Below are positions 834 through 27,452 of a stretch of 27,452 nucleotides of DNA, in pieces (position 1 is the first letter of the stretch; every line of letters starts with the position of its first letter). The translations under genes and the position numbers were made by a program. The notes beneath the pieces are model-generated. The model was not told the DNA's origin and ran no database searches. It worked only from the letters and a program-made list of their open reading frames with translations. Origin of the DNA: a virus; the IMG/VR virus record IMGVR_UViG_3300025727_000043, positions 1 to 27,452 of that record; one strand, given 5' to 3'.

Positions 834-2863
834 CCATAGAATACAAAGATTCAAAACGAATTGTAGGATTATCAACTGATACTGTAGAAACATTGTCCTT
901 TGAAGATGATTCTTTCTCAAGTGGGTGGACTCAAGCTGGAACTACAATAGTAGCAACAGGTGGACAAGCAGTAATTACAGCAGTTCCAAGAAATGCTGAA
1001 CATAGAATTTACAAATCATTAGGATTAACAGTTGATAACACAAAGTTTATTCTTGACTTTAAGATAAATATATCTGCCATGACTTCACAATGGGGTGGTA
1101 TTTGGGTAGGACTTACAGATGATACTACTTGGGTTGGTTCAAACTCAAATGACTTTTTAGGATTTAATATACATGATAATAGTGGTGGTACAACTGGAAA
1201 GATGAGAACAACTTATTCAAATGAGGGAACAAAGAATGTAGCAGGAAACTCAACTACAACAATTAGTTTTAATACAGATTATTATGTTAGAGTAATTAGA
1301 ACAAGTGCAACAAATACAGATTGTTATGTATATTCTGATTCTGCAAGAACAACATTAGTAGAAAAACTACCATCATTAACAACATTACCATCTGGAGTAG
1401 ATGGTCTTACACATATTCAGGTAACTTCTGATAATGGTGGTATATCTGCCACAGTAACAGGTGTAGTAGATGATATTAAATTATGGAGTGGAGTAACATC
1501 ATTAACATCTAAACCAACTGACGTACAAGACAACTCCATCTTTGTAGAAACTGATACTGCTAGAAGATATTGGTTTGATGAAACAGGAACAACAATTAAC
1601 TTTCCACCTGAAACAACAGTAACAGAATTTACAACTCAAGGAACACCTGATGATATGGTATTTTCACAAGATGGATTGCATTTATACACAGTAGATGGAT
1701 CAGGTGCTTTAAGTTTAGGGGAATATACACTTCAAACAGCATGGGATATATCAACTGCAAGTCATACTAGAAATAAATCATTTTCATACGGTAGTTTATC
1801 AGGTGTATCAATTAACAATGATGGAACTAAAATTTATGTTGTTGATTATACAACTCAAAAATGCCATGAATTAGATTTAGGAACTGCTTATAATATTTCA
1901 ACAGCAGTAGATAACGGTGTTTTTAAAAGTATAGGTGGTAGTGTTCCAACAGGGATTCACTTTAAACCTGATGGAACTAAAGCTTATGTTGTTGACCAAA
2001 ACCCTGATCAACTTTATCAGTATTCTTTATCAACAGCATGGAATTTATCAACTTTGAATACTACAGCAGTTGCAACTAAATCATTATCTTCACAAAACCC
2101 AGAAGGAATGATTATGAATTATGCAGGAACTAAAATTTGGGTATTATACAACAGTAATGATACAGCAGAAGAATGGACACTTCAAACAGCATGGGATTTG
2201 TCCACAGCAACAGCAGGAACTACTTGGGATTTTAGTGGTGTTGCAAATACATTAAGTGGTGGAGATACAAACCCAGATGATAGTACAATTTATTTCCTTA
2301 ATTCAACAGGAAAAGTATTAGAATATCCACCAACACCTGCTACTTGGACTATGCAACCAACATTTGAAGATGGGTTAACAAATTATTCAAGTACAAGTAG
2401 TTCTGTTGATTTAACAGGTTCTACATTATCAGATTCTTGGGTTTTTAGATTTAAACTAACAATGACAGCAAAGTCTAATGGTATTGTGTTCATGGTTCAG
2501 GATAATACATCTACAACAGTAACAACTCCTAGAGATGGTATAGGATTAAGACAAACTGATACTACAAACTATTATGATTTTGAAGGTTCAAACAATGTGG
2601 GTGGTAATGCTGGACAGTATGACCATAGGTTTTCTTCAACAGCACCTGCACTTGACACAAAATATATTCAGATAACAAGAATATCAGCAACTCAGGCAAA
2701 GATTGAATTTTATGATTCAACATACACAACAGTATCAGAAACATCAGGGGATATTACAATAGCAAATATTGATAACCTTAGATACTTTGTTGTATCAAGT
2801 AACACTTCAACATTCTCAATAGATGATGTTGAATTTTACAACGGAGTGACCACGATAAATTGA
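830..2863 (+). CDS. Jelly-roll / beta-propeller / jelly-roll fusion, putative tail adhesin
   Basis: This 677-residue protein has three parts. Residues about 20-225 form a LamG-like unit ending V-V-D-D-I-K-L-W-S-G-V-T. A linker carries NSIFVETDTARRYWFDETG (about 235-252). Residues about 265-505 hold repeated blades of about 45 residues with the signature D-G-T-K-x-Y-V-V-D followed by L-x-T-A-W-x-x-S-T, typical of beta-propellers in phage fibre proteins. Residues about 515-677 form a second LamG-like unit ending I-D-D-V-E-F-Y-N-G-V-T. Both jelly-roll units resemble the preceding gene, so the three units are duplicates. The start codon ATG overlaps the upstream stop as ATGA. The likely role is receptor binding at the virion tail; this rests on domain architecture and on its place in a fibre gene block. 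Confidence 0.7.
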   Translation: MTIEYKDSKRIVGLSTDTVETLSFEDDSFSSGWTQAGTTIVATGGQAVITAVPRNAEHRIYKSLGLTVDNTKFILDFKINISAMTSQWGGIWVGLTDDTTWVGSNSNDFLGFNIHDNSGGTTGKMRTTYSNEGTKNVAGNSTTTISFNTDYYVRVIRTSATNTDCYVYSDSARTTLVEKLPSLTTLPSGVDGLTHIQVTSDNGGISATVTGVVDDIKLWSGVTSLTSKPTDVQDNSIFVETDTARRYWFDETGTTINFPPETTVTEFTTQGTPDDMVFSQDGLHLYTVDGSGALSLGEYTLQTAWDISTASHTRNKSFSYGSLSGVSINNDGTKIYVVDYTTQKCHELDLGTAYNISTAVDNGVFKSIGGSVPTGIHFKPDGTKAYVVDQNPDQLYQYSLSTAWNLSTLNTTAVATKSLSSQNPEGMIMNYAGTKIWVLYNSNDTAEEWTLQTAWDLSTATAGTTWDFSGVANTLSGGDTNPDDSTIYFLNSTGKVLEYPPTPATWTMQPTFEDGLTNYSSTSSSVDLTGSTLSDSWVFRFKLTMTAKSNGIVFMVQDNTSTTVTTPRDGIGLRQTDTTNYYDFEGSNNVGGNAGQYDHRFSSTAPALDTKYIQITRISATQAKIEFYDSTYTTVSETSGDITIANIDNLRYFVVSSNTSTFSIDDVEFYNGVTTIN

Positions 2864-3114
2864 GCCAAGAATACTATGACCACTTAAACGAGGGGGAGAA
2901 ATACTCATGCGACAAGTGCAACGTGGCAACCCTATCTGGTATAGAATATGACCAATATATCATCAATCAGTATCACTACTGCGAGGGTTGCTGGAACTAT
3001 GTGCATCTCAAAAGGGGAACTTGCACTTGTGGAAACACCATGACCAACAGGAACGAGTATGCTAGTATCTTTATTAACTGTAGTTGTGGAAAAGAGGTAG
3101 AGTTAAAATGGTAG
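2860..3114 (+). CDS. Small cysteine-rich zinc-ribbon protein
   Basis: An 84-residue protein with four cysteine groups: YSCDKC near residue 17, a single CEGC pair near 42, CTCG near 53 and NCSCG near 71. This spacing suggests two zinc-binding knuckles. The start is a TTG whose last bases overlap the upstream stop (TTGA at 2860-2863); no in-frame ATG lies nearby. The codon use is distinctly richer in C-ending codons (AAC, GAC, TAC, TGC) than the two flanking structural genes, which favour AAT and GAT. This hints at a different origin or expression level. It lies within the adhesin block, so it may be a chaperone or a structural zinc protein, but no family is recognised and the role is unknown. 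Confidence 0.6.
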   Translation: MSQEYYDHLNEGEKYSCDKCNVATLSGIEYDQYIINQYHYCEGCWNYVHLKRGTCTCGNTMTNRNEYASIFINCSCGKEVELKW

Positions 3115-8327: not shown

Positions 8328-8681
8328 ATGTCAATGAATCTTACTGGTAGAAACATAGAATACCTAGTAAAAGTAGGTGCTAGGTCACAAGTTGTTCTTA
8401 ATATAACAGATTCTGTAGGAGTAATTAAGGATTTATCAGATACTAGTACATATGCCACAGCTACTTGGAAAGTATGGCAACCAGATGGTACTTTGTTAAT
8501 TAATGGTAGTGCAACATATAGTAATAGATCAGCAGGAGAAATATCATACCTCTTAACAGCAACTGATACAGTCATAGCAAATAGTGGTATCTGGGAAGGA
8601 GAAGTCGAACTGTTTAACACAAGTGGGGTTATGACAGAACAATCGGAAACTTTTAATTTTACCATTGAGGAGAGTTACTAA
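8328..8681 (+). CDS. Small beta-sandwich protein, BppU N-terminal-like
   Basis: A 117-residue protein of almost entirely alternating beta pattern. The core A-T-A-T-W-K-V-W-Q-P-D-G-T-L-L-I-N-G followed by G-I-W-E-G-E-V-E-L-F-N-T-S-G resembles the N-terminal domain of phage baseplate upper proteins (BppU family), which attaches receptor-binding parts to the baseplate. The ATG at 8328 is followed two codons later by another ATG; the first is favoured by GAGGGT 11 bases upstream and by the TATA spacing. It is coupled to the next small gene by TAATG. Location after the adhesin and rod genes suits a baseplate or fibre-adaptor role. Assignment is by pattern only. Confidence 0.5.
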   Translation: MSMNLTGRNIEYLVKVGARSQVVLNITDSVGVIKDLSDTSTYATATWKVWQPDGTLLINGSATYSNRSAGEISYLLTATDTVIANSGIWEGEVELFNTSGVMTEQSETFNFTIEESY

Positions 8682-8839
8682 TGGGTTCTATAAAGATTCT
8701 AGTAGGTGGAGAATGTAAATTCTGTGGACATTCACAACAAACACATGAAGAAAATACAGGTTGTACACACCCAATACCTGAAACTGGTGAATCATCAGGT
8801 GATGGTGTATGTGGCTGTGAAAGAATAGGCTCATACTAA
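8681..8839 (+). CDS. 52-residue zinc-binding microprotein
   Basis: The protein reads ECKFCGHSQQTHEENTGCTH in its first part and GVCGCERIGSY at the end. The C-x2-C-x-H ... C-x-H and C-x-C groups look like a compact zinc knuckle, a form common in tiny virus proteins. The start shares one base with the stop of the preceding gene (TAATG), with GAGGAG 8 bases upstream. The stop is at 8837-8839, followed at once by the TATA box of the next gene. Function unknown. Confidence 0.65.
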   Translation: MGSIKILVGGECKFCGHSQQTHEENTGCTHPIPETGESSGDGVCGCERIGSY

Positions 8840-16447: not shown

Positions 16448-16585
16448 ATGGTAAGACGAGATACCGATCATTATTGTATAGAGTGTAACGCCATACTTCC
16501 TTGGAGATATAAGGGCAGACAACGTATATACTGTAGTAACACATGTAGGAATGAATATACAAAGAGGAAAAAGGATGAAGTATAG
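16448..16585 (+). CDS. 45-residue zinc-ribbon microprotein
   Basis: The protein contains H-Y-C-I-E-C-N-A-I-L-P-W and then R-I-Y-C-S-N-T-C-R-N-E-Y, a C-x2-C ... C-x3-C arrangement like treble-clef or FCS-type zinc fingers, followed by a basic tail K-R-K-K-D. It is preceded by a TATA box at the leaderless distance. Its end overlaps the next tiny gene by 11 bases. A nucleic-acid-binding role is likely from the fold and charge, but no family is named. Confidence 0.65.
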   Translation: MVRRDTDHYCIECNAILPWRYKGRQRIYCSNTCRNEYTKRKKDEV

Positions 16586-16676
16586 TTGTAAACAGTGTGA
16601 TTTTACCATAGAAAGCGATTATTTTAAATCAGAGTTAATGTTACAAATAACCATACATGAAAAAACCCACAATTAA
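16575..16676 (+). CDS. 33-residue C2H2-like zinc-finger microprotein
   Basis: The whole protein is one finger-like unit: Y-S-C-K-Q-C-D-F-T-I, then 19 residues, then H-E-K-T-H-N. The C-x2-C ... H-x3-H spacing matches a classical C2H2 finger. A GAGG motif lies about 8 bases upstream of the ATG. It overlaps the previous gene by 11 bases and the next by 20 bases, which is typical of this compact genome but also makes a chance ORF possible. The intact zinc ligands argue that it is real. Confidence 0.5.
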   Translation: MKYSCKQCDFTIESDYFKSELMLQITIHEKTHN

Positions 16677-17277: not shown

Positions 17278-17829
17278 TTAGATAGGGTAATCCTCTTTTG
17301 CCTGTTTGATAGGGATGAATGGGATAGTAATAGGTAGCCAAATCATATTCCATCTTATCCAAAACTTGATGGTTTTCTTGCTTCCATACCAGTTGTCATG
17401 TACAATAACTGTGGCTGCTGCCCCTCTAGTACCTGCTCTGCCTTCTGGTGAGTTATATTTTCTGGTAATATGAAAAGTTCCAACTGTATCCTGATAGATG
17501 GCATGTAGTAATTCATGTGCTAGTGGCATTATGTTACTTCGAAGCATGAATGGATTCTTACTATCATTGACAAACATGTAAATTACTTTATATCCTGTCA
17601 CACCCCATGCTATACCATCACTAACTTCAATATCTAGGTGATTGTAGAATGCCTTAAAATCTTCTTGTGATGTTACAGGAATGATATTAAGTGTCCAGTC
17701 CTTTCTGAACCTTTCAAGTGCCTCATAACTGCTTTTATGGTTACCATCATGACCGTTAAACATTATGGTTCGTTCAATGATGTCGGTATATGTTTTATGG
17801 TTTATATTTTTAGTAAAGAAATTAATCAT
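17278..17829 (-). CDS. HExxH metalloprotease candidate with hydrophobic C-terminus
   Basis: A 183-residue protein from the ATG at 17829. A GTG at 17841 is in frame but poorly placed relative to the TATA box. The zinc-protease signature H-E-L-L-H lies at residues 105-109 in M-P-L-A-H-E-L-L-H-A-I-Y, with His120, Glu129 and Asp145 as possible further ligands. Residues about 154-173 (I-K-F-W-I-R-W-N-M-I-W-L-P-I-T-I-P-F-I-P) are strongly hydrophobic and tryptophan-rich, suggesting membrane attachment. No signal peptide is clear. It could take part in entry or release through the host envelope, or be a regulatory protease. The single HExxH motif in a helix context makes catalysis likely, but the family is not recognised. 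Confidence 0.6.
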   Translation of the reverse strand: MINFFTKNINHKTYTDIIERTIMFNGHDGNHKSSYEALERFRKDWTLNIIPVTSQEDFKAFYNHLDIEVSDGIAWGVTGYKVIYMFVNDSKNPFMLRSNIMPLAHELLHAIYQDTVGTFHITRKYNSPEGRAGTRGAAATVIVHDNWYGSKKTIKFWIRWNMIWLPITIPFIPIKQAKEDYPI

Positions 17830-17851
17830 GAAAACATACACTATTCACAAC

Positions 17852-25226: not shown

Positions 25227-25502
25227 ATGTATCGTAATTCATATCAGATAACAGAAGATATTTTGGATGTTGTATCATATAGTGGTATGCAAGGAGTATC
25301 AATAACACCACTCATTAGAAAATCTAATCTATCTCACAAAAGAATGATAGGGTTTATTAATAAATTAACACAATCAAACTTGGTTAATAAAATAGAAACA
25401 AATGGAAAATTTACATTTATCATAACAGATAAAGGTAGAGTTTATCTTGATGAATACAAAAAGTTTTCAACCATTGCAGATTCGTTTGGTTTGGAATTAT
25501 AA
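25227..25502 (+). CDS. Winged-helix transcriptional regulator
   Basis: A 91-residue protein. Residues 8-30 form the first helix (I-T-E-D-I-L-D-V-V-S-Y-S), followed by G-V-S-I-T-P-L-I-R-K-S-N-L-S-H-K-R-M as the helix-turn-helix. The wing is L-V-N-K-I-E-T-N-G-K-F-T-F-I-I-T-D-K-G-R-V-Y-L-D-E-Y. The order N-L-S ... L-T-Q-S-N-L-V ... T-D-K-G matches the small archaeal winged-helix regulators of the COG3432 kind, which many archaeal viruses carry. It has its own TATA box and sits between the recombination cassette and the secreted-protein gene, so it may control either. Confidence 0.75.
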   Translation: MYRNSYQITEDILDVVSYSGMQGVSITPLIRKSNLSHKRMIGFINKLTQSNLVNKIETNGKFTFIITDKGRVYLDEYKKFSTIADSFGLEL

Positions 25503-25535: not shown

Positions 25536-26489
25536 ATGAAAATACAATTCATAATAGCAATATTAGTAAGTGTAGCCCTTACTTCTGCTTATGCCGAAGA
25601 GGCAATTGTTCAAGTACCGTTTGACTATCATGGTCAACAATGTACTTTCAATGAAGTGGCAATTGAATATCAGTGCACATGGCAAGGAACTTATGACACA
25701 TTCACAGTAGAAGATTTGGAAGAATTCAAACATGTTCTAAGTGAAGAAGTGTATGAGGAAGAACTTGCTAGATTGACATATGTAGAGCCAATAGTTATAC
25801 CACAACTTAGTGCTGACGAAAAGACAATTCAAAAACTTGAATTACAGTTAGAACAGGGAGTCATTAAAACTCCTGAGGCTGTACTGTTACAGATGTTGAG
25901 AGACTTGGATGAATGCCAACAAGGATTGGACAATTCATCAGCAATACAAACAGAGAGAACGTTTGTAATATCTCAGTATGAACATCTTGAACTATTCAAT
26001 GTGCAGGCAACAGGTCAACTTGGTATTCTTTCTCTGGCAATAGAGGAGTGTAAGGCACAACAAGTATTAGAACATCAGATATTAACCGTTGCATACAAAC
26101 ACTTTGAAGATGCAAACAGAGCAGGTAACTTCCAACATTTGGAATCATTGAAAGGTATAAGTGCAATACCATACGAGCAGTACACAAAGTCTGACTTTAA
26201 GGTAAATACCAATGTGATATGTAACAGCCACGCATACCCACAATCCTACAAAGATACAATGGGTTGTCCACCTATACAGTATGATGGATTTACATACCCA
26301 GAGGGTAACGGTTTAATCAGTTACTACTCACCAATACTAGAGGAGTATACATTCTTCATGCAGGATTATGGCAACAAACAAGCAACATTACATGACAAGC
26401 AAGTACAGGCTAATATTGCAGAACCAATCGCAAAAGAATTGATAGAAGATAATCTATTCTATCAAAACAAAATCAAATATGGGGATTAA
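25536..26489 (+). CDS. Secreted protein of unknown function with signal peptide
   Basis: A 317-residue protein. Residues 1-20 are a signal peptide: a Lys at position 2, the hydrophobic run I-Q-F-I-I-A-I-L-V-S-V-A-L-T and a likely cut after S-A-Y-A. The mature part has about seven cysteines (near H-G-Q-Q-C, Y-Q-C-T-W, D-E-C-Q-Q, I-E-E-C-K, V-I-C-N-S and M-G-C-P-P), which may pair outside the cell. Residues about 95-200 are helical and acidic; residues 220-270 are Tyr/Pro-rich. It could coat the virion, alter the host surface or act in superinfection exclusion. No family recognised. Codon use is richer in C-ending codons than the two genes before it. Confidence 0.65.
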   Translation: MKIQFIIAILVSVALTSAYAEEAIVQVPFDYHGQQCTFNEVAIEYQCTWQGTYDTFTVEDLEEFKHVLSEEVYEEELARLTYVEPIVIPQLSADEKTIQKLELQLEQGVIKTPEAVLLQMLRDLDECQQGLDNSSAIQTERTFVISQYEHLELFNVQATGQLGILSLAIEECKAQQVLEHQILTVAYKHFEDANRAGNFQHLESLKGISAIPYEQYTKSDFKVNTNVICNSHAYPQSYKDTMGCPPIQYDGFTYPEGNGLISYYSPILEEYTFFMQDYGNKQATLHDKQVQANIAEPIAKELIEDNLFYQNKIKYGD

Positions 26490-26509
26490 CCTCCTTTTTA
26501 TTTTTAATT

Positions 26510-26665
26510 ATGACAGTATACACAGTATGCAAAGTATGTGACCATGGCATGCTGCTGCATGGATGTGTTGACGGTGTAGGATACTGTATGGAAGGTAATG
26601 GTGACTGGTGTGATTGCACTGAAAAGGGAAAGACTTATGAAGAAGAGATTGCTGAATTAAAGTAA
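26510..26665 (+). CDS. 51-residue cysteine-rich microprotein
   Basis: The protein starts M-T-V-Y-T-V-C-K-V-C-D-H-G, continues with H-G-C-V-D-G-V-G-Y-C and D-W-C-D-C, and ends in an acidic helix Y-E-E-E-I-A-E-L-K. Six cysteines and two histidines make one or two zinc sites likely. It is the first of a coupled run of tiny genes; its stop overlaps the next start as TAATG. A T-rich tract (26494-26507) precedes it, and no clear TATA box was found. Confidence 0.6.
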   Translation: MTVYTVCKVCDHGMLLHGCVDGVGYCMEGNGDWCDCTEKGKTYEEEIAELK

Positions 26666-26769
26666 TGATTTACCCTTCTTGTAAATATAAAAAACATTTT
26701 CAATGTCCCACTCAATATGCTGGTCTAGAACCATGTAGATGTATTTGTCATAAGATAGGTAATGGATAA
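26665..26769 (+). CDS. 34-residue cysteine-rich microprotein
   Basis: The protein contains P-S-C-K-Y-K-K-H-F-Q-C and E-P-C-R-C-I-C-H-K, giving five cysteines and two histidines in 34 residues, a probable single zinc site. Start and stop overlap both neighbours by one base (TAATG). Too short for a family call; the run of coupled zinc ORFs argues that it is translated. Confidence 0.5.
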   Translation: MIYPSCKYKKHFQCPTQYAGLEPCRCICHKIGNG

Positions 26770-26906
26770 TGAGATGCAAAAAATGTTCTAAAACATTCAA
26801 GTCATGTGGTTGTACAGGTAAACACTGCTGGGAATCATCACAACAATGTTTTTATTGTCATTATTTGGATATTAATCTAAATATGAGTAGAAGTATTAAG
26901 ATATGA
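26769..26906 (+). CDS. 45-residue cysteine-rich microprotein
   Basis: The protein reads M-R-C-K-K-C-S-K-T-F, S-C-G-C-T-G-K-H-C and Q-Q-C-F-Y-C-H-Y: three C-x1-2-C groups, enough for two zinc sites. It overlaps the previous stop (TAATG) and the next start (ATGA). The basic end R-S-I-K-I and the C-x2-C lead suggest nucleic-acid or protein binding, unknown which. Confidence 0.55.
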   Translation: MRCKKCSKTFKSCGCTGKHCWESSQQCFYCHYLDINLNMSRSIKI

Positions 26907-27010
26907 AATGTCAACGTTGTAATGAGGATATGGATAAAATGACTGTATGTCATCAAATATGTCCTAATTGTGGAGCAGTAGTAGATTGTTCTGATGGGGT
27001 ATTTGAGTAA
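26903..27010 (+). CDS. 35-residue zinc-ribbon microprotein
   Basis: M-K-C-Q-R-C-N-E-D at the start and H-Q-I-C-P-N-C-G-A-V-V-D-C in the middle form a standard C-x2-C ... C-x2-C zinc ribbon like those of transcription factors and ribosomal proteins. It overlaps the preceding gene as ATGA. Confidence 0.6.
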   Translation: MKCQRCNEDMDKMTVCHQICPNCGAVVDCSDGVFE

Positions 27011-27018
27011 GAAAAGTA

Positions 27019-27028
27019 TTAAATATTA
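27019..27028 (+). promoter_or_regulatory. Possible TATA box for the last small-gene group
   Basis: TTAAATATTA is centred about 24 bases before ATG 27047. Confidence 0.45.
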
Positions 27029-27046
27029 CATATATGTATATTTTAC

Positions 27047-27148
27047 ATGACAAGAACTATTAGAAAACGTAATAGTAAACACCCTACAAGGGATGGTAAT
27101 CATAATCCAGTATGTAAAGACCCTGATAATTGTGATGATTGTAAATGA
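27047..27148 (+). CDS. 33-residue basic microprotein with three cysteines
   Basis: The protein starts M-T-R-T-I-R-K-R-N-S-K-H-P-T-R and ends P-V-C-K-D-P-D-N-C-D-D-C-K. The basic half may bind nucleic acid; three cysteines plus His may bind zinc. It overlaps the next gene as ATGA. Confidence 0.45.
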   Translation: MTRTIRKRNSKHPTRDGNHNPVCKDPDNCDDCK

Positions 27149-27324
27149 AACTAACTAAGGATAGATTCACCAACTGGGAAGATATAGATGAGGATTATGA
27201 CATTCTATTAGATGATGAATTAATCATAAGTATAAAACCAGAAGAAAGGAGTAGGGATGTAGCAGATTACATCATGTCATGTCAAGAAAAAGCAGAGAAA
27301 TGGGATATGAAAGGAGATGAATAA
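27145..27324 (+). CDS. 59-residue acidic hypothetical protein
   Basis: An acidic protein (F-T-N-W-E-D-I-D-E-D-Y-D-I, then P-E-E-R-S-R-D-V-A-D-Y-I-M) with a helical C-terminus and a single cysteine. It is the one member of the run without zinc-ligand pairs. Coupled on both sides by overlaps (ATGA and TAATG). Confidence 0.5.
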   Translation: MKLTKDRFTNWEDIDEDYDILLDDELIISIKPEERSRDVADYIMSCQEKAEKWDMKGDE

Positions 27325-27443
27325 TGAAATTAACAGGCACACCAAGAAAGCACCCATATTGTTTAATCTGTAAAGAGATATACATGGATTTCTGTATGCT
27401 ACATGGTCACATTAAAGGCAGTTTTGAGATGAGAGATGTTTAA
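27324..27443 (+). CDS. 39-residue zinc-knuckle microprotein
   Basis: The protein contains H-P-Y-C-L-I-C-K-E-I and D-F-C-M-L-H-G-H, a C-x2-C ... C-x2-H knuckle. It starts on the last base of the preceding stop (TAATG) and ends nine bases before the window edge. Confidence 0.55.
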   Translation: MKLTGTPRKHPYCLICKEIYMDFCMLHGHIKGSFEMRDV

Positions 27444-27452
27444 ACATTTAAA

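Follow-up and report, generated by a model that had tools for sequence, protein, structure and literature searches.

Phage host-takeover modules, such as the early genes of SPO1 and T4, pack together tiny, variable genes that are non-structural and pass between viruses. The locus described here, in a virus record of 27,452 bases (the window, by which we mean the whole of this stretch), is likewise dense, tiny-gened, variable and exchanged between viruses. It differs from such modules in that the virus is archaeal, nearly all members carry Cys/His motifs and two have host counterparts. Anti-CRISPR and anti-defence loci offer a second comparison: they too combine an HTH regulator with small mobile genes next to it, but no known inhibitor family was matched here, and one member of the cluster, m4, has a near-universal host homologue.

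Two groups of small archaeal zinc proteins are also close. The HVO_2523 family consists of stand-alone proteins of ~35–45 amino acids, and the host gene of m4 is similarly a single-copy gene; m4 differs in having extra conserved CH and DCSD motifs and in being carried by viruses within a coupled chain. Deletion of HVO_2523 in Haloferax led to four phenotypes, including loss of swarming, gain of biofilm and altered growth on glycerol (PMC6562870). Furthermore, small zinc proteins that had gone unannotated have been recognised as ribosomal proteins of archaea (aS34, PMC11698992). Such ribosome-associated proteins, which include HVO_2753-like chains in solved structures, are small and were long unannotated; the host m4 gene resembles them in adjoining rpS6e-aIF2gamma, whereas m4 itself has no significant sequence match among PDB chains.

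Results

The window encodes a terminase, an MCM helicase and a RadA recombinase, a combination that fits the expectation for an archaeal head-tail virus, and its terminase large subunit (TerL) matched PF03237 (E 2.4e-12) and PF17289. Homologues of m4 and m5 were observed in Nitrososphaeria chromosomes, and virus-like m4 copies on two contigs of Nitrosopumilus MAGs (L155 and L157, of which L157 carries m5 as well). We read the window as part of the genome of a head-tail virus whose hosts are probably Nitrososphaeria, the ammonia-oxidising archaea. Among GenBank phages, TerL identity was at most ~30% (Halogranum virus HGTV-1), and no real match to m4 was found; Marthavirus has been described with radA and CobS (PMC7678222). 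Related contigs were gathered through TerL, RadA, p317 and m4. The 64–65 kb relatives 3300009103_000025 and 3300024261_000028 have direct repeats at their ends (119 and 127 bases), which suggests that these contigs are complete genomes; the window would then be less than half a genome. Elsewhere in the window, positions 17278–17841 on the opposite (minus) strand encode a protein that contains the zincin-like metallopeptidase motif AHELLHA and matches no Pfam family above cut-off. TATA-like TTTATATA lies ~25–35 bases ahead of many start codons (e.g. 4815, 11614, 18318 and 25227), and this spacing suggests leaderless transcripts.

The cluster lies on the plus strand, as do two genes upstream of it: p91 (25227–25502), a putative winged-helix (HTH_45) regulator scoring 43.1 bits against PF14947, and p317 (25536–26489), which has an N-terminal signal-like segment and is common to otherwise unrelated viruses. 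The original prediction placed seven head-to-tail ORFs of 33–59 residues at 26510–27443, and they were found as described. The first, m1 (26510–26665), encodes 51 aa with the pattern CxxCxHGx3HG...GYC...CxC; m2 (26665–26769), 34 aa with Cx4HxxC...CxCxCH; m3 (26769–26906), 45 aa with MRCKxC...GCTGxHCW...CxxCHY; and m4 (26903–27010), 35 aa with the predicted zinc ribbon CxxCx3Mx5CHxxCxNCGx3DCSD. They are followed by m5 (27047–27148), 33 aa with a basic N-terminus and the pattern MTRTxRxR..HPTRDGxHNPVC...C..C; m6 (27145–27324), an acidic protein of 59 aa coupled to m5 and m7; and m7 (27324–27443), 39 aa with a zinc-knuckle-like HxxCxxCx7CxxH. Six of the seven carry Cys/His clusters, as had been claimed, m6 being the exception without a zinc motif. 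Five of the six junctions overlap, again in line with the claim that all but one would: m1/m2, m2/m3 and m6/m7 as TAATG, and m3/m4 and m5/m6 as ATGA. The sole non-overlapping junction is m4/m5, with a gap of 36 nt. An eighth gene absent from that prediction, m8, starts at 27436 on the same strand (27436–27452, MFKHL...) and is truncated where the contig stops, so that the cluster extends beyond the window. It overlaps m7 by 8 bases (−8), an overlap kept in several relatives, where m8 has 47–49 aa; it is DUF6356-like, scoring 18.7 bits against PF19883, under the gathering cut-off of 24.4. A T-rich tract (e.g. CCTTTTTTTTATT) was noticed upstream of m1 (26490–26509) and of m4 in many relatives; it ends a few bases from the start codon, and could be the terminator of the preceding gene or part of a start signal.

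We compared the cluster, which has 7 ATG ORFs of at least 33 aa, 5 coupled junctions and 6 Cys/His-rich ORFs, with first-order Markov shuffles of its own 963 bases. None of 5000 shuffles matched any of the three counts (means 1.15, 0.01 and 0.23; maxima 5, 1 and 3, in the same order). Counted genome-wide by motif alone, zinc-like short ORFs were not above shuffled expectation; since the bare motif is not enriched, the case for genes rests on conservation.

Homologues of all seven ORFs are present in related contigs: m1 in 11 contigs, m2 in 34, m3 in 12 close contigs and one marginal, m4 in more than 80, m5 in 16, m6 in 13 and m7 in 14 (m8 in 12). All seven genes are under purifying selection, with dN/dS, pooled over disjoint closest pairs, of 0.50 for m1, 0.33 for m2, 0.21 for m3, 0.19 for m4, 0.21 for m5, 0.59 for m6 and 0.39 for m7, compared with 0.15 for the RadA control; m6 is the least constrained of them. 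The Cys/His columns are nearly all fixed while other columns vary: 7 of 8 are invariant in m1 (10/10 sequences), 7 of 7 in m2 (26/26), 8 of 9 in m3 (9/9), 7 of 7 in m4 (45/45), 5 of 5 in m5 and 5 of 6 in m7. Frameshifts and lost Cys codons in relatives, named beforehand as evidence against the prediction, were looked for, and the outcome favoured genes, with ligands nearly all invariant. Synteny and per-ORF dN/dS, one of the checks proposed, gave the same answer: values span 0.19–0.59, and overlaps and blocks recur in relatives. These results confirm that the seven ORFs are genuine, conserved, coupled microgenes.

Other zinc ORFs had been listed at 2860, 8681, 16448 and 16575, and these exist too, the last at ~16551/16575. 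They carry zinc motifs at 2860–3114, 8681–8839, 16448–16585 and 16551–16676, and their families are conserved across related contigs, that of 8681 in 46, that of 16448 in 51 and that of 16551 in 21. Across these viruses there are ~40 conserved short-ORF families averaging at least 3.5 Cys, some of which may be antisense artefacts.

No Pfam, PHROG, NCBIfam or PADLOC assignment was obtained for m1–m7, save for the HVO_2523-like m4. The latter matched NCBIfam NF041914 (HVO_2523) with E 3.2e-5 and 23.8 bits, under the cut-off of 60; the alignment is near full-length (positions 2–31 of 33), with conserved ligands. Host copies of m4 scored 20–22 bits, and NF041914 was above cut-off in 0 of 41 host genomes, with a positive Haloferax control. 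Relative to the libraries searched, the gene families are new. We considered and rejected a tandem duplication of a single zinc gene, as profile comparisons of m1/m2, m4/m3 and m5/m7 showed no similarity; m1 and the ORF at 8681 have a weak common pattern, CxxCxHx4H (E 0.0013).

AlphaFold predicted a small zinc ribbon for m4, with a mean pLDDT of 81, and the m1 model was unusable (pLDDT 58). The nearest Foldseek structures to m4 were ZifS, ribosomal eL43 and the TFS/RPA12 ribbons, all of them weak (best E 0.6) and of a kind general to zinc ribbons; in a search of PDB sequences for m4, no match was significant (best E 0.066). Among comparable zinc-motif proteins of Haloferax, 9 of the 14 tested bound zinc, and AlphaFold was no predictor of binding (PMC11241148). 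We infer from the sequences that the six motif-bearing proteins may bind zinc.

Bacterial and archaeal genomes were scanned with the m4 alignment, which gave 177 relatives; 80 were kept, and these are from Nitrososphaeria or from archaeal MAGs so labelled. A homologue was found in 101 of the 121 genomes of one host family, nearly always single-copy, and in 7/7 chosen genomes. The host gene encodes a predicted zinc ribbon of ~40 aa and is divergent from rpS6e in 74 of the 80 loci; rpS6e was followed by aIF2gamma in all four neighbourhoods read. A Lys follows CSD in 76/76 chromosomal copies, and virus copies are divided, 41 with it and 44 without. The m4 tree, built on 35 residues with little signal, needs at least three changes between virus and host, so that the direction of capture is suggested only by the near-universal host distribution. 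We read m4 as the virus-borne version of a microprotein encoded on host chromosomes.

The searches of 200 host genomes covered m1, m2, m3, m5 and m7. Of the 200, 20 carry m5 amid ordinary chromosomal genes; m1 and m2 were found in none, m3 gave only 2 marginal matches and m7 only 2 weak, stop-interrupted ones; m1 and m2 are thus virus-only in this sample, and m3 and m7 essentially so. These negatives are meaningful, since the same method detects m4 in hosts and m1 in viruses. One host contig (L368) has more zinc-motif microORFs near its m5 copy (190–294, 511–636 and 2000–2236), some of which show a CxxCxHx4H...CxC pattern like that of m1.

The genes occur in different arrangements among the viruses. 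In many relatives m2 stands alone, ~0.9–1.8 kb upstream of TerL, and in many m4 stands alone between TerL and MCM. In the window's clade, m2-m3-m4 form one overlapping chain. A second block is m5-m6-m7-m8, and in four relatives m1 directly follows p91 with a −4/−1 overlap. The m2-m3-m4 chain was also found in 3300037875_000390, which is distant in the RadA tree: compared with the window, identity is 77% for m2, 71% for m3 and 89% for m4, against 46% for MCM. The second block is similar between viruses whose MCM proteins are only 27–46% identical, with DNA identity of ~85–98% over m5–m8 and protein identity of mostly 70–100% over m5–m7; there m7 reaches 89–100% (32% in one divergent subgroup), and m6 ranges from 55% up to 95%. 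In a virus with an MCM 27% identical, 129 nt of m6 are 98.5% identical. An otherwise unrelated 36-kb contig, 3300022933_000013, has strong DNA matches only to p317 (76%) and m5–m8 (85% over 434 nt). In 3300025665_000038, m6-m7-m8 sit exactly between the HNH and nuclease genes, which in the window adjoin with a one-base overlap.

Overlap junctions also recur in new orders, namely m2-m1 as TAATG, m4-m2 as ATGA and m7-m5 as TAATG. Here only cases in which the upstream ORF ends at the overlap were used, because any second codon starting with A yields ATGA and inflates the raw count. By all these comparisons, the m2-m3-m4 and m5–m8 blocks behave like small mobile cassettes in which translational coupling stays tight. 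Like host-takeover modules, the locus consists of small accessory genes with variable content; m4 and m2 may be more than accessory, since they are lone genes near core modules in some viruses.

Discussion

Our results suggested that the cluster may be a mobile accessory module of candidate zinc microproteins that dock on the host gene-expression machinery, a reading to which we give a probability of roughly 45%. The module would be built from the sub-cassettes m2-m3-m4, m5-m6-m7-m8 and m1, with the microproteins of each translated in a coupled chain, and the overlapping starts and stops would lead to coupled, roughly equimolar synthesis from one transcript. Each protein would be a ribbon or knuckle with a single zinc, too small to be a catalyst, and would act by docking on a host macromolecule. 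For m4, docking on the translation machinery is the most likely role, although unproven: it would compete with or replace its host counterpart there, as suggested by the position of the host gene divergent from rpS6e-aIF2gamma together with a ribbon fold of the ribosome/RNA-polymerase type. Of these, the synteny with rpS6e bears on translation indirectly. The remaining members probably serve as small regulators of host takeover in the same style, and viruses would differ in which of them they use. The host-directed action proposed originally is plausible, given a module that is accessory and spreads horizontally, and given the homologues of m4 and m5 on host chromosomes. That the module is a toolkit which crosses virus lineages and reprograms host translation by mimicking a ribosome-associated m4 counterpart is a bolder version, and we consider it unlikely.

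Other explanations account for part of these observations. The cluster could be a counter-defence island, in which the microproteins would each block a different defence system of the host in an anti-CRISPR-like manner with p91 as HTH partner; anti-defence loci typically hold mobile, variable small genes, and p91 (HTH_45) adjoins m1 in four relatives. This is possible and yet improbable: chromosomal homologues of m4 and m5, the former near-universal and single-copy, are unusual for defence inhibitors, and many m4 and m2 copies are alone beside core genes. PADLOC gave no match either, though it lists defence proteins and not inhibitors, and the rpS6e-aIF2gamma neighbourhood of host m4 points to translation rather than defence. 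That neighbourhood, of translation and not replication genes, also speaks against the idea of accessories to replication, repair or packaging that assist MCM, RadA, nucleases or terminase. The lone m4 between TerL and MCM and m2 upstream of TerL in many relatives would fit such accessories, as would the insertion of m6-m7-m8 in a RadA-HNH-nuclease stretch in some; the module, however, moves independently of TerL, MCM and RadA lineage, and we regard this role as rather doubtful.

A comparably small chance is left to modulation of host or virus RNA polymerase by TFS-, TFB- or Elf1-like zinc ribbons. Small phage proteins of the TraR type act on RNA polymerase (PMC11323111), m4 is weakly similar to TFIIB/RpoP-type ribbons, and Foldseek lists TFS4 and RPA12; but the scores are all far under the family cut-offs, and ribosomal ribbons score equally well. 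Finally, chance ORFs or decaying remnants of larger zinc proteins would agree with motif counts that are no higher genome-wide than in shuffles, and this explanation is contradicted by the conservation, the purifying selection, the intact ligands, the kept overlaps and the absence of any comparable cluster in 5000 shuffles, which makes it highly improbable.

In summary, both mobile small-gene modules and zinc microproteins are already known kinds, and the new element is such a module, two members of which have counterparts in the hosts, in what are probably viruses of ammonia-oxidising archaea. Proteins of 33–59 residues, easily missed in annotation, are among the well conserved and the most mobile genes of these viruses. 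In the ocean, ammonia-oxidising archaea are major nitrifiers. That viruses carry copies of a near-universal zinc microprotein of the host flags an uncharacterised host gene that is worth study, and m4 provides a testable entry to viral takeover of cells that are hard to manipulate genetically.
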